Origin: Flavobacterium ammonificans
GTDB lineage: Bacteria > Bacteroidota > Bacteroidia > Flavobacteriales > Flavobacteriaceae
NCBI RefSeq assembly: GCF_020886115.1
Contig: NZ_AP025185.1
Coordinates: 1,054,001-1,118,000 of the forward strand
Length of the DNA: 64,000 nucleotides
Reading direction: 5' to 3'
The translations under genes and the position numbers were made by a program. Of the stretch, positions 42,062-58,672 are shown one piece after another; position 1 is the first letter of the stretch, and every line of letters starts with the position of its first letter. The notes beneath the pieces are model-generated. The model was not told the origin of the DNA. It worked only from the letters and a program-made list of their open reading frames with translations, and made no database searches.

Positions 42062-43312
42062 TTATAATTTGAAAGCTGTTTTTACAGCATCTACAAAATC
42101 TAATTTTTCCCAAGTAAATAAATCTACAGTAACGGTTTTTGTTAATCCGCCAGGAGCAGAGAAAGTTTTAGTAACTGTTTCAGGAGTACGTCCCATATGT
42201 CCGTAAGCTGCTGTTTCACTATAAATAGGATTTCTTAATTTCAAACGTTGCTCAATAAAGTACGGACGCATATCAAAAATACCTTCCACTACTTTACTTA
42301 TTTCTCCATCTGTCAAACTTACTTTAGAAGTTCCGTAAGTGTTTACGTTGATTGATGTTGGTTTTGCCACACCAATAGCGTACGATACTTGAACTAAAAC
42401 TTCGTCACACAATCCCGCTGCTACTAAGTTTTTAGCAATATGACGGGTTGCATACGCTGCAGAACGGTCAACTTTAGATGGATCTTTTCCGGAGAATGCC
42501 CCACCACCGTGAGCACCTTTTCCACCATAAGTATCCACAATGATTTTTCTTCCTGTCAAACCAGTATCTCCGTGAGGTCCTCCAATAACGAATTTTCCTG
42601 TTGGGTTGATATGATAGGTAATATTATCATTGAATAAATGTGCATATTGTGGGTATTTAGCTTTAATACGCGGAATCAAAATACTAACCAAGTCTGATTT
42701 GATTTTAGCTAACATTTTAGCTTCTTCATCAAAATCGTCGTGTTGTGTAGAGATTACAATCGCATCAATACGAACGGGTTTATTATCATCTGAATATTCA
42801 AGCGTTACTTGCGATTTAGCATCTGGACGCAAGTATTTGATTTCGTTGTTCTCTCTTCTCAAGTTCGCCAACTCGATCAAAATTGCGTGAGATAAATCCA
42901 AAGCCAAAGGCATGTAGTTCTCCGTCTCATTAGTAGCGTAACCAAACATCATTCCTTGGTCACCTGCTCCTTGTTCTTCTTTACTGGCTCTATCCACTCC
43001 TTGATTGATATCAGCTGATTGTTCGTGAATAGCTGAAAGAATTCCACAAGAATTCGCTTCAAACATGTATTCGCTTTTAGTGTAACCAATTTTCTTGATC
43101 ACATCACGAGCAATTTGTTGCACATCTAAGTAGGTATTGGATTTAACTTCTCCAGCCAAGATTACCTGACCGGTAGTTACCAAAGTTTCACAAGCTACTT
43201 TTGAATCGGCATCAAATGCCAAAAAATTATCGATTAATGCATCGGAGATTTGGTCAGCTATTTTGTCTGGATGTCCTTCACTCACAGATTCTGACGTAAA
43301 TAAATAAGCCAT
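42062..43312 (-). CDS. metK: S-adenosylmethionine synthetase
   Basis: 416 residues. Family motifs are [17 protein letters not shown] at the N-terminus, [16 protein letters not shown] (the hexapeptide-type ATP motif), and [19 protein letters not shown] near the methionine/ATP site. It makes S-adenosylmethionine from methionine and ATP. The start codon at 43310-43312 is preceded by a leader with a SAM-II-type riboswitch and a perfect Bacteroidota promoter, so synthesis is probably feedback-regulated by SAM. It is divergent from the metX operon. Confidence 0.98.
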
Positions 43313-43318
43313 AATGAT

Positions 43319-43338
43319 TTAATTTTATTTAAAATTAA
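43319..43338 (-). promoter_or_regulatory. Start-proximal hairpin of the metK leader
   Basis: Perfect 9-base-pair inverted repeat TTAATTTTA/TAAAATTAA (43319-43327 with 43330-43338), beginning seven bases before the metK ATG. It covers the region where the ribosome would bind and may be part of the riboswitch expression platform. Confidence 0.4.
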
Positions 43339-43381
43339 GCGAGGAAAAAAGGGTATTGCCACGAAATGCTAAAGGGAAGTT

Positions 43382-43433
43382 CCTGCTTTAGCATTTTTTA
43401 ATGAGGTTGCAATCAGTTCAAATTTTTCCTCTG
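43382..43433 (-). promoter_or_regulatory. SAM-II riboswitch in the metK leader
   Basis: On the minus strand the leader reads GAGG at the 5' side, then ATTTGAACTGATTGCAA, CCTC closing stem P1 (43403-43406 with 43428-43431), then TTAAAAAATGCTAAAGCAGG. Order and core words match the SAM-II (SAM-alpha) aptamer known from alphaproteobacteria and Bacteroidota (ATTTG..., TTGCA, P1, A-rich linker, GCTAAAG). CTG in the loop can pair with CAG downstream to give the pseudoknot. The match is from memory of the family consensus. The transcription start predicted from the promoter is only a few bases upstream of the aptamer. Confidence 0.8.
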
Positions 43434-43444
43434 AAATTAGAGTG

Positions 43445-43474
43445 CAAAGTTATAAAACGATTTTGATTTCCAAA
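43445..43474 (-). promoter_or_regulatory. Promoter for metK
   Basis: On the minus strand TTTG (43471-43474) and TAACTTTG (43445-43452) are spaced by 18 bases, an exact match to the Bacteroidota promoter. Transcription should start near 43439, just before the SAM-II aptamer. Confidence 0.75.
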
Positions 43475-43719
43475 TTAAACTTTCTCTTTTTTTTAAAATT
43501 TAAATAGTTTAACTAATACGAAATAAAAAAAAATGAGTTCATTTTTAATTTTCTTTCATTTTGATGAATTCATAATAAAACGATTTGATTCTGTTGTAAA
43601 GTTGTATTATAGGGGTAAAATTGATTCTTATAAATGAAAAATAACTAAAATTTTCACAGTTGGCAAGAGAAACATTACCGCTATCAGAGCTATGTTAGGT
43701 TGAATATAAGTCGGCGAGA
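43475..43719. other. Central part of the metK-metX divergent region
   Basis: About 245 bases of AT-rich sequence between the two promoters. A 34-codon open frame (43533-43637, plus) is the only ORF of note and has no detectable features. I see no further RNA or protein gene. Confidence 0.5.
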
Positions 43720-43751
43720 TTTGTTTCTTTAATAATTATGACGTTAATTTG
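43720..43751 (+). promoter_or_regulatory. Promoter for the metX operon
   Basis: TTTG at 43720-43723 and TTAATTTG (seven of eight) at 43744-43751, spaced by 20 bases, just upstream of the S-box riboswitch. Confidence 0.55.
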
Positions 43752-43781
43752 CAATTCAAAGTTCAAATAAACGTATTGAAA

Positions 43782-43886
43782 TGTTATAAAGAAAGGTAGA
43801 GGGATTAGACCCAGTGAAGCCTTAGCAACCCTTCGGTAAATCGAAGAAGGTGCTGCATTCTACCACATTAATGTGGAAAGATAACA
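43782..43886 (+). promoter_or_regulatory. SAM-I (S-box) riboswitch upstream of metX
   Basis: The conserved S-box core is clear: AGAGGGATTAGACCCAGTGA, then AAGCCTTAGCAACC, then AAGGTGCTGCATTC. Closing stem P1 is TGTTAT (43782-43787) with ATAACA (43881-43886). P3 is the CTTCG...CGAAG hairpin near 43831-43846 and P4 is CCACAT/ATGTGG at 43863-43876. SAM binding should lower expression of metX and perhaps the genes after it. A small TCTAG/CTAGA stem followed by a T-rich run (43897-43920) is the only terminator-like element after the aptamer. Confidence 0.95.
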
Positions 43887-43958
43887 CGAGATTTTTTCTA
43901 GTTTACTTCTAGATTTTCTTTCTAATATTTCCAGCACAAATCAATATTTACAACCGAT

Positions 43959-44927
43959 TTGACATTGGAAAATAAATTCAACCAAATACAAATACATAAT
44001 TTCATCACAGAAAGTGGTGCGCATTATCCTATAATCAATTTAAGTTACCAAGTTTTTGGACCTCAATTGAATACAGCGCCTGTTGTTTTGGTCAATCATG
44101 CCTTGACGGGAAATTCTCAAGTTATTGGAGAACAAGGTTGGTGGAATGATCTTATTGGCGAAAGCAAAACCATAGATACATTGAAATATACTGTTTTAGC
44201 TTTCAATGTTCCAGGAAACGGATATGATGGTTTCCTGATAGAAAATTACAAAGATTTCAATGCAAGAGATGTTGCACGGTTATTTAACCAAGGAATTAAA
44301 GACTTGCAAATTAAACAGTTGTTTGCGATAATTGGAGGTTCTGTTGGTGGTGGAATTGCTTGGGAAATGGCAGCTTTAGAAACTAAAATTACCCAACATT
44401 TAATTCCGATTGCAACTGATTGGAAATCGACAGATTGGTTGATTGCGAATTGTTTTTTGCAAGAGCAAATTTTAGCCAATTCGTCAAAACCAATTGAAGA
44501 CGCTCGCATTCACGCTATGTTATGTTATAGGACACCAGCCTCTTTTTCGGCTAAATTTCAACGGACACTAAATGAAGAATTGCAAATGTATAATGTAGAA
44601 AGTTGGTTAGCGCATCACGGAAATAAGTTGCAAAAGCGTTTTCAGCTTTCGGCTTATAAAATGATGAACCAGTTATTAAAGACGATTGATATTACAAGAG
44701 GAAGAGATTCTTTCGAAGCAGTAGCCTCAAAAATTGAAGCGAATATTCATATTATTGGAATTGATTCTGATTTGTTTTTTACGGCAAATGAGAACCGAGC
44801 TACCTATGAAGAATTAAAAAAATATAAAGAAAGTGTATCCTATCAAGAGATTGTTTCCATTCACGGTCACGATGCTTTTTTGATAGAATACCAACAATTA
44901 CATAATTTATTGGCTACCATTTTTTAG
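43959..44927 (+). CDS. metX: Homoserine O-acetyltransferase-like alpha/beta hydrolase
   Basis: 322 residues, somewhat shorter than the usual 350-380. The alpha/beta-hydrolase fold of MetX is visible: LVNHALTGNSQV (oxyanion region), the nucleophile elbow GGSVGGGIAWEMAALE, IDSDLFF with the acid and HGHDAFLIE with the histidine. It acylates homoserine, the first committed step to methionine. There is no ATG near the start; the frame opens with TTG at 43959 (a second TTG at 43965), and an in-frame stop at 43923 blocks a longer protein. It lies just downstream of the S-box riboswitch and is followed by thrA after 24 bases. Confidence 0.9.
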   Translation: MTLENKFNQIQIHNFITESGAHYPIINLSYQVFGPQLNTAPVVLVNHALTGNSQVIGEQGWWNDLIGESKTIDTLKYTVLAFNVPGNGYDGFLIENYKDFNARDVARLFNQGIKDLQIKQLFAIIGGSVGGGIAWEMAALETKITQHLIPIATDWKSTDWLIANCFLQEQILANSSKPIEDARIHAMLCYRTPASFSAKFQRTLNEELQMYNVESWLAHHGNKLQKRFQLSAYKMMNQLLKTIDITRGRDSFEAVASKIEANIHIIGIDSDLFFTANENRATYEELKKYKESVSYQEIVSIHGHDAFLIEYQQLHNLLATIF

Positions 44928-58411: not shown

Positions 58412-58672
58412 GTTTGTTGGCAACTGACGCAATTCCAAATTTTTAAAAGGATCGTTACTAATATTTTTTTAAAGCAAAGGAATGGCGTATTTTTGCCAAG
58501 ATTTTTTCCTGCTGTACGCTGTATCTTTTTTCTGAAACCCAGAATAAAAGGATGCCGCTTCCACCTGCCTTTCGGCAGACAGGTCAGGGCTAAAGGGCAG
58601 AAAGGGATTTTTTGCCAAGAAATAAACAACATAATAGTTTGATGAAGTGCCTTTTCGGCCAAAATAAAAAAT
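58412..58672 (+). promoter_or_regulatory. Leader region of the split methionine synthase operon
   Basis: A 261-base gap. It contains TATTTTTG (exact TAnnTTTG) at 58488-58495, a likely -7 element for the metH pair. A G/C-rich imperfect palindrome ACCTGCCTTTCGGCAGACAGGT at about 58563-58584 (written here in two parts: ACCTGCCTTTCGG and CAGACAGGT) is followed by GGGCTAAAGGGCAG. I looked for a cobalamin or SAM riboswitch and did not recognise one. Confidence 0.55.

Follow-up and report, generated by a model that had tools for sequence, protein, structure and literature searches.

The window, a 64,000-nucleotide stretch of the Flavobacterium ammonificans genome, probably holds two SAM-sensing OFF switches that share the intergenic region between two divergent genes: metK would be under a SAM-II riboswitch and a metX-like gene under a SAM-I riboswitch, both with mirror-strand expression platforms and the latter acting through a stem at the metX start. 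In the mechanism we propose, each leader RNA would have two folds that exclude each other. In the absence of SAM, the aptamer would be consumed by pairing with a mirror (anti-aptamer) strand lying downstream of it, while with SAM the aptamer would keep its own strands and the mirror would be freed. In the metX leader, the freed UUUCCA would then close the UUG start to ribosomes by pairing with the UUGGAAA there, with no Shine-Dalgarno sequence involved. In the metK leader, the freed mirror would lower expression, and the candidates for this step are lineage-specific start occlusion, Rho and mRNA decay. The OFF direction is presumed because of pathway logic, and that the folds truly exclude each other in the cell, like the metK output, belongs to the model. 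The new element is that each leader has, downstream of its aptamer, a mirror strand complementary to that aptamer; these platforms, the family-wide coexistence of the two classes split by gene and the recurrent divergent arrangement are what make the region notable.

Rfam cmscan of the whole window gave three matches above the gathering score, namely SAM-I, SAM-II long loop and Flavo-1. The SAM-II aptamer (RF01726, long loop) lies at 43378-43437 on the minus strand, where the covariance model is significant (63.7 bits against a gathering score of 44; E 6e-10), and the plus strand carries the SAM-I aptamer (RF00162) at 43781-43887 (76.8 bits against 44.4; E 3e-16), matched over model positions 1-108 of 108. 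The original prediction had placed two unrelated SAM aptamers divergently, about 350 bases apart, one on SAM synthesis and the other on methionine synthesis; the search agrees on all of this, with coordinates off by at most 4 bases and a gap of 343 bases between the aptamers on opposite strands. Its family for the minus strand, RF00521, had no match over the gathering score in the window, and RF01726 takes its place. The SAM-II alignment contains P1 and the conserved 3' pseudoknot strand AAAUGCUAAAGC, the pseudoknot pairs not being scored by the model. By sequence, the two aptamers qualify as members of RF01726 and RF00162, which confirms them as real and as predicted SAM binders, and both leader RNAs would be expected to bind SAM. 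The 2.41-Mb genome has one RF01726 match and one RF00162 match, both those of the window. The idea that the 343-nt gap is a repeat was rejected: besides itself it has in the genome a single match of 39 nt (82%), and a 24-nt probe from it matches, among 321 loci, only the window's own two. Just 5' of SAM-I, at 43757-43780 (+), the pattern AAAGUUCAA..UGAA is kept in relatives and by eye may form a small 5' hairpin. The Flavo-1 RNA (RF01705) is at 58501-58595 (-), with 52.2 bits against a gathering score of 42.

The gene behind the SAM-II aptamer is metK (42062-43312, minus strand), encoding an S-adenosylmethionine synthetase of 416 aa with three Pfam domains and 518.8 bits to TIGR01034 (cut-off 309.4). 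The aptamer ends 66 nt before its ATG. The metX-like gene (43959-44927, plus strand; 322 aa from UUG 43959) encodes a short alpha/beta hydrolase with Pfam Abhydrolase_1, whose best NCBIfam model is MetX_acetyl (E 8e-53, yet 179.7 bits, below the cut-off of 500). The open frame opens at UUG 43959, the in-frame UUG 43965 is an alternative start candidate, and this UUG region is conserved among relatives. Its neighbours are an aspartokinase/homoserine dehydrogenase, OsmC, a Cys/Met-metabolism PLP enzyme, Rrf2 and TauE, which fits methionine and sulfur metabolism.

According to the original prediction, each aptamer follows its own Bacteroidota-type promoter, and this holds well for the minus strand. 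The metK promoter (43445-43474, minus strand) lies just upstream of the aptamer and consists of TTTG at 43474-43471, 18 nt, and TAACTTTG at 43452-43445, so that the -7 element begins 15 nt ahead of the aptamer. TAnnTTTG is the flavobacterial -7 box (PMC9723704), and of 180 loci, 173 have it starting 30-8 nt upstream of their SAM-II aptamer, compared with 1.75% of mononucleotide-shuffled flanks, which makes the metK promoter convincing and implies that the metK transcript starts almost at the aptamer. On the plus strand, the likely -7 element of the SAM-I/metX transcript, TAATTTG then C (43745-43751), is a weaker and inexact match to TAnnTTTG. The letters at 43745-43752 (+) are TAATTTGC, and TACTTTGC stands there in five other loci (L067, L080, L090, L288, L306). 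The fit is closer to TAnnTTGY (SM5 in F. psychrophilum, PMC9723704) than to the housekeeping TAnnTTTG, and different sigma factors may therefore serve the metK and metX promoters.

On the metX side we folded the leaders with a model that, here and throughout, ignores pseudoknot, ligand and kinetics. In the ligand-free fold of the window, the SAM-I mirror strand UCUAGUUUACUUCUAGAUUUUCUUUCUAAUAUUUCC (43897-43932, +) pairs with its target GAAAUGUUAUAAAGAAAG (43778-43795, +), which is the 5' flank of the aptamer and the 5' part of P1. The end of this mirror also forms the start stem (43928-43971, +), in which an outer helix joins UUUCCA (43928-43933) to UUGGAAA (43965-43971) and an inner helix joins CAAAUC (43937-43942) to GAUUUG (43956-43961). 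The letters of both helices were checked, and the stem is conserved in relatives. The probability that the start is unpaired is 0.37 in the free leader and 0.10 with the aptamer set aside.

The duplex of SAM-I mirror and aptamer recurs, being significant (p<=0.05) in 48 of 50 metX leaders with a mean z of -4.1. These leaders, mostly from the genus Flavobacterium, are 50 of 59 metX-adjacent SAM-I loci, and several of the nine excluded (L125, L126, L127, L129, L131, L139, L140, L158, L182) are near-duplicates. For a wider flavobacterial set, made of 30 family SAM-I loci and 34 of 53 further matches and excluding matches cut by the locus end, some genus loci and L001, the duplex is significant in 32 of 64 leaders and misses significance in the other 32. 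Of the 50 metX leaders, 45 have UUGGAAA at the start, preceded by UUUCCA (42), AUUCCA (2) or UUUCCU (1), while the start stem was not found in the remaining five (L149, L171, L179, L183, L188). The best inner helix in 43 leaders has 6 pairs in 34 and 5 pairs in 9. Over the same number of leaders, the UUUCC:GGAAA helix has a probability of 0.22 in the free leader and 0.86 with the aptamer set aside, and UUUCC is paired with the aptamer side at 0.61 in the ligand-free ensemble. UUGGAAA is unpaired at 0.39 free against 0.14 bound; the drop exceeds 0.2 in 31 of 45 leaders, and an equal rise occurs in none. Over the broader region from -18 to +12 of metX the unpaired probability changes little (0.55 to 0.50; a drop of more than 0.1 in 7 of 50), closure of the window's start compared with mononucleotide shuffles gives a borderline 0.063, and the UUGGAA letters are constrained by the protein as well. 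We also considered whether the SAM-I mirror pairs with the metX coding sequence in general and rejected this, as the coding windows showed nothing special and the local start stem alone stood out. In F. johnsoniae, of a phylum without Shine-Dalgarno sequences, structure near the start is reported to lower initiation (PMC6847099). The pairing of the mirror's 3' end with the UUG start in metX leaders is a predicted Shine-Dalgarno-free translational OFF switch, and this leader would serve as a concrete model of riboswitch translational control in such a phylum.

The metK leader carries a mirror of its own. At 43341-43374 on the minus strand, letter by letter, stands the complement of the aptamer in reverse order: alpha CUUUAGCAUUU (43374-43364) complements aptamer 43396-43386, AAAUGCUAAAG; beta GCAAU (43359-43355) complements 43413-43409, AUUGC; and gamma UUUUUCCUC (43349-43341) complements 43431-43423, GAGGAAAAA. 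This duplex has a z of -5.2 against 200 dinucleotide shuffles. In the ligand-free ensemble of the window, with pseudoknot and ligand outside the model, the pair probability of alpha and gamma is 0.97 and that of P1 is 0.00. When the leader is grown from the aptamer start, alpha pairs with the pseudoknot strand already at 80 nt, and at 95 nt the minimum-energy fold swaps P1 for the mirror hairpin.

We computed the same duplex for 175 metK leaders against 200 dinucleotide shuffles each (the short locus L071 was omitted). It turned out that 121 reach p<=0.05, 64 of them p<=0.01, with a mean z of -2.6, and 54 miss p<=0.05; the significant ones are 73 of the 95 leaders from the family and 48 of the 80 from the genus. 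Alpha words occur in 28 of 95 family and 75 of 80 genus leaders, far above shuffles. The beta word GCAAU is found in 64 of 80 genus leaders, far above shuffles, and in 27 of 95 family leaders, while another beta word, UCAAAUC, is found in 34 of 95 family leaders, far above shuffles, and in 0 of 80 genus leaders. Of the leaders with both words, all 62 from the genus and 35 of the 41 from the family have alpha ahead of beta, the order that one hairpin needs. For gamma-type words, the genus shows an enrichment (57 of 80 against 17.6 in shuffles) that is absent from the family sample (12 of 95 against 11.8). In a swap test over 122 leaders, a leader's own downstream part paired at -22.4 kcal/mol, compared with -19.8 kcal/mol for the parts of others (Wilcoxon p 1e-8). 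The own part had a median rank of 0.30, stood in the best 5% in 17 of 122 leaders and was worse than the median in 36, so the covariation is modest.

These last figures could be read in another way, in which the complementarity is a by-product, A/U-rich leaders with conserved pyrimidine runs looking like the complement of a purine-rich aptamer, and the riboswitches work otherwise. The absence of gamma-type enrichment in the family sample and the modest swap test suit such a by-product, and the mirror does pair with purine-rich coding stretches as well. However, the dinucleotide shuffles preserve composition and are beaten all the same, in 121 of 175 SAM-II leaders and 48 of 50 SAM-I leaders, and the alpha and beta words are both far above shuffles and in hairpin order, so that we consider a mere by-product improbable and keep to mirror strands as expression platforms.

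Start sequestration is predicted for the metX leader and unsupported for the metK leader. Over 174 leaders (L013, which contains N, was omitted from the start-closure tests), the metK start in the bound fold is unpaired at 0.519, compared with 0.514 in shuffled leaders, and thus shows no extra closure; closure of the metK start is not supported as a general mechanism. Changes of more than 0.1 make 28 of the 174 starts more closed and 7 more open. In the window itself the start is unpaired at 0.40 in the bound fold against 0.53 in shuffled leaders (rank 0.10). Besides, the window folds have freed SAM-II gamma pairing with metK codons (GUGAGUGAAGG), and we followed this pairing by duplex energies along metK in 36-nt windows for 173 leaders. 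No peak at the start over other purine-rich stretches was found, and this candidate was rejected. By eye, a different-looking design unlike the window's is present in five loci (L004, L006, L013, L275, L321), where a hairpin ends beside the metK AUG, such as GUUGCUUUUA..UAAAAGCAAC in L004, and holds an aptamer-complementary loop stretch.

The question of output brings in a rival explanation, namely that both riboswitches are transcriptional and the SAM-bound fold ends the transcript, through a weak hairpin after SAM-I (UCUAG, 7 nt, CUAGA, then UUUUCUUUCU) and through Rho loading onto the freed pyrimidine-rich mirror after SAM-II. The hairpin CUAG..CUAG with a pyrimidine run is seen by eye in the SAM-I leaders of many relatives, the failure to find start sequestration in the 174 metK leaders leaves room for transcription, and SAM-II riboswitches elsewhere are often terminator-based (PMC1273637, PMC2258182). 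Against this, positions 43200-44050 contain 0 terminator-like sites (0.2 expected in shuffles) in a scan that asks for 3 G-C pairs and could overlook a weak A/U-rich terminator; the CUAG hairpin has few G-C pairs and is absent from some leaders, such as L134 and L159; and a mirror rich in pyrimidines says nothing independent about Rho, because pairing with a purine-rich aptamer strand already dictates pyrimidines. An intrinsic terminator, a common though not universal SAM-I platform, is likewise not found here. We regard the transcriptional explanation as rather unlikely and retain translational control for metX. The original prediction had allowed for transcription on one side against translation on the other; this division finds no support, since no terminator-like site was found in 43200-44050 and both leaders share a mirror strand.

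To see how common the two classes are, we searched genome samples at three levels; searches over more than 40 genomes ran with stricter filters, by which weak matches are lost. Among 249 Flavobacteriaceae genomes, 245 have SAM-II, 212 have SAM-I and 210 have both, and the 81 Flavobacterium genomes all have SAM-II, with SAM-I, and hence both, in 71. Across the phylum (118 genomes), SAM-I occurs in 102 and SAM-II in 16, all 16 of which also have SAM-I; these carriers comprise 12 from the family, 2 more from the order and 2 more from the class, one of the 16 lying under the cut-off. In a control genome, Bacteroides ihuae, the phylum searches detected SAM-II and not SAM-I. A 2007 survey had counted zero species with both SAM-I and SAM-II, and RF01726 was described after it (PMC2864571). 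The presence of both in one genome is the usual state in Flavobacteriaceae and no oddity.

The two classes are divided by gene. The 180 fetched SAM-II loci are a non-random sample, 81 from genus genomes and 99 from the 150 best-scoring listed family matches, to which a few genomes contribute two loci; metK follows SAM-II in 176 of them, with the ATG 38-107 nt past the aptamer. SAM-I is present in 79 of 80 metX loci, directly ahead of metX in 59 of these. Three small genomes (G003, G047, G204) have two SAM-II each, and no SAM-I was found in them by the family-sample search. In L018 (G003) and L260 (G204), SAM-II is followed by a mirror-like AGUCAAAUC or GUCAAAUC and then by a Cys/Met PLP-type enzyme gene, an assignment for which Pfam was run on L018 alone; in other genomes it is SAM-I that leads genes of this type. 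The other SAM-II of G003 (L255:2001-2651) precedes a DUF6580 membrane-protein-like gene, whose product might be a transporter connected with methionine or SAM, and the second SAM-II locus of G047 is L256. SAM-II matches of L214-L252, from larger Flavobacterium genomes, are about 101-109 nt long (45-51 bits), their P1 and pseudoknot strand being separated by additional hairpins, while most others are 57-63 nt.

A broader reading, tenable though tentative, is that flavobacteria in general would use a Shine-Dalgarno-free mirror-strand output and split SAM sensing by gene between two classes, SAM-II for SAM synthesis and SAM-I for methionine synthesis. The mirror would consume the aptamer without ligand and clamp the start codon with it, and in some lineages with small genomes and no detected SAM-I, SAM-II would have taken charge of a methionine gene. 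Most of the sampled flavobacterial genomes have both classes and so offer a natural test of why there are two RNA solutions for one metabolite, with affinity, speed or output as candidate reasons. For RNAs of other organisms, published affinities lie far apart, with about 4 nM for the SAM-I of yitJ versus about 10 uM for the minimal SAM-II of metA (PMC1273637).

A survey of flavobacterial metK and metX regions, suggested with the original prediction, shows coexistence of the classes to be usual (210 of 249), while the close divergent placement, with SAM-I within 350 nt of SAM-II, occurs in 22 of 180 loci. This count omits the short locus L071, from a genome (G249) in which a divergent pair, separated by about 190 nt, is present too. 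From the N-terminal sequence judged by eye, the SAM-I-led gene in the 22 loci is Cys/Met PLP-type in 10 and metX-like in 3, and in 9 it carries a motif that we take to mark metH-like genes. A further 14 loci have both on one strand, with SAM-I following SAM-II at about 1.4-1.5 kb. The closest named MetX relative is that of Flavobacterium ammonificans L122 (95% identity), and L122 and L123 both have a SAM-II core a few hundred bases ahead of SAM-I, on the other strand. The divergent placement might itself matter if promoters or leaders were coupled and the pair formed one regulatory unit. The gap in the close divergent loci is indeed 115-152 nt in 17 of 22 and 125-129 nt in 11, despite differing SAM-I-led genes. 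We nevertheless find such coupling very improbable: the window's own gap of 343 nt is outside this cluster, most genomes with both classes have their aptamers farther apart or elsewhere, and like gap sizes may merely reflect ancestry and the room needed for two promoters. Two OFF switches that share a divergent region remain the preferred explanation.

Among known systems, the SAM-I (S box) family RF00162 is represented here by an aptamer that also exceeds its gathering score. S boxes have a strand that competes with the outer helix of the aptamer, and a similar competing strand exists here; unlike the S box, no terminator was found, and the strand takes the 5' flank and 5' part of the aptamer and alternates between these and the UUG start. 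The SAM-II long loop family RF01726 (Weinberg et al. 2010, PMC2864571) resembles the present case in its occurrence in Bacteroidota before a SAM-pathway gene, with an aptamer above the gathering score and a promoter adjoining it; the relevant passages of that paper describe no expression platform, whereas in the window and its relatives a conserved mirror strand follows. For metA and metZ of S. meliloti, a SAM-II aptamer is likewise proposed as an OFF switch (PMC9373788), with the Shine-Dalgarno sequence at the aptamer or a terminator, while here the aptamer and the ATG are 66 nt apart and no terminator was found. In the open-licence PubMed Central literature we found neither a divergent SAM-I/SAM-II pair nor a flavobacterial SAM-II expression platform described, and the available parts of PMC13273304, PMC12452182 and PMC12121620 hold nothing on either. 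The F. psychrophilum transcriptome lists five Rfam cis-RNA predictions, which may include these riboswitches (PMC9723704). The closest parallel for two SAM classes near each other is the tandem arrangement of SAM-II/SAM-V and SAM-II/SAM-I-IV (PMC9481103); in those tandem (bi-mechanism) riboswitches the two aptamers share one transcript, whereas those of the window are on opposite strands, each serving its own gene.
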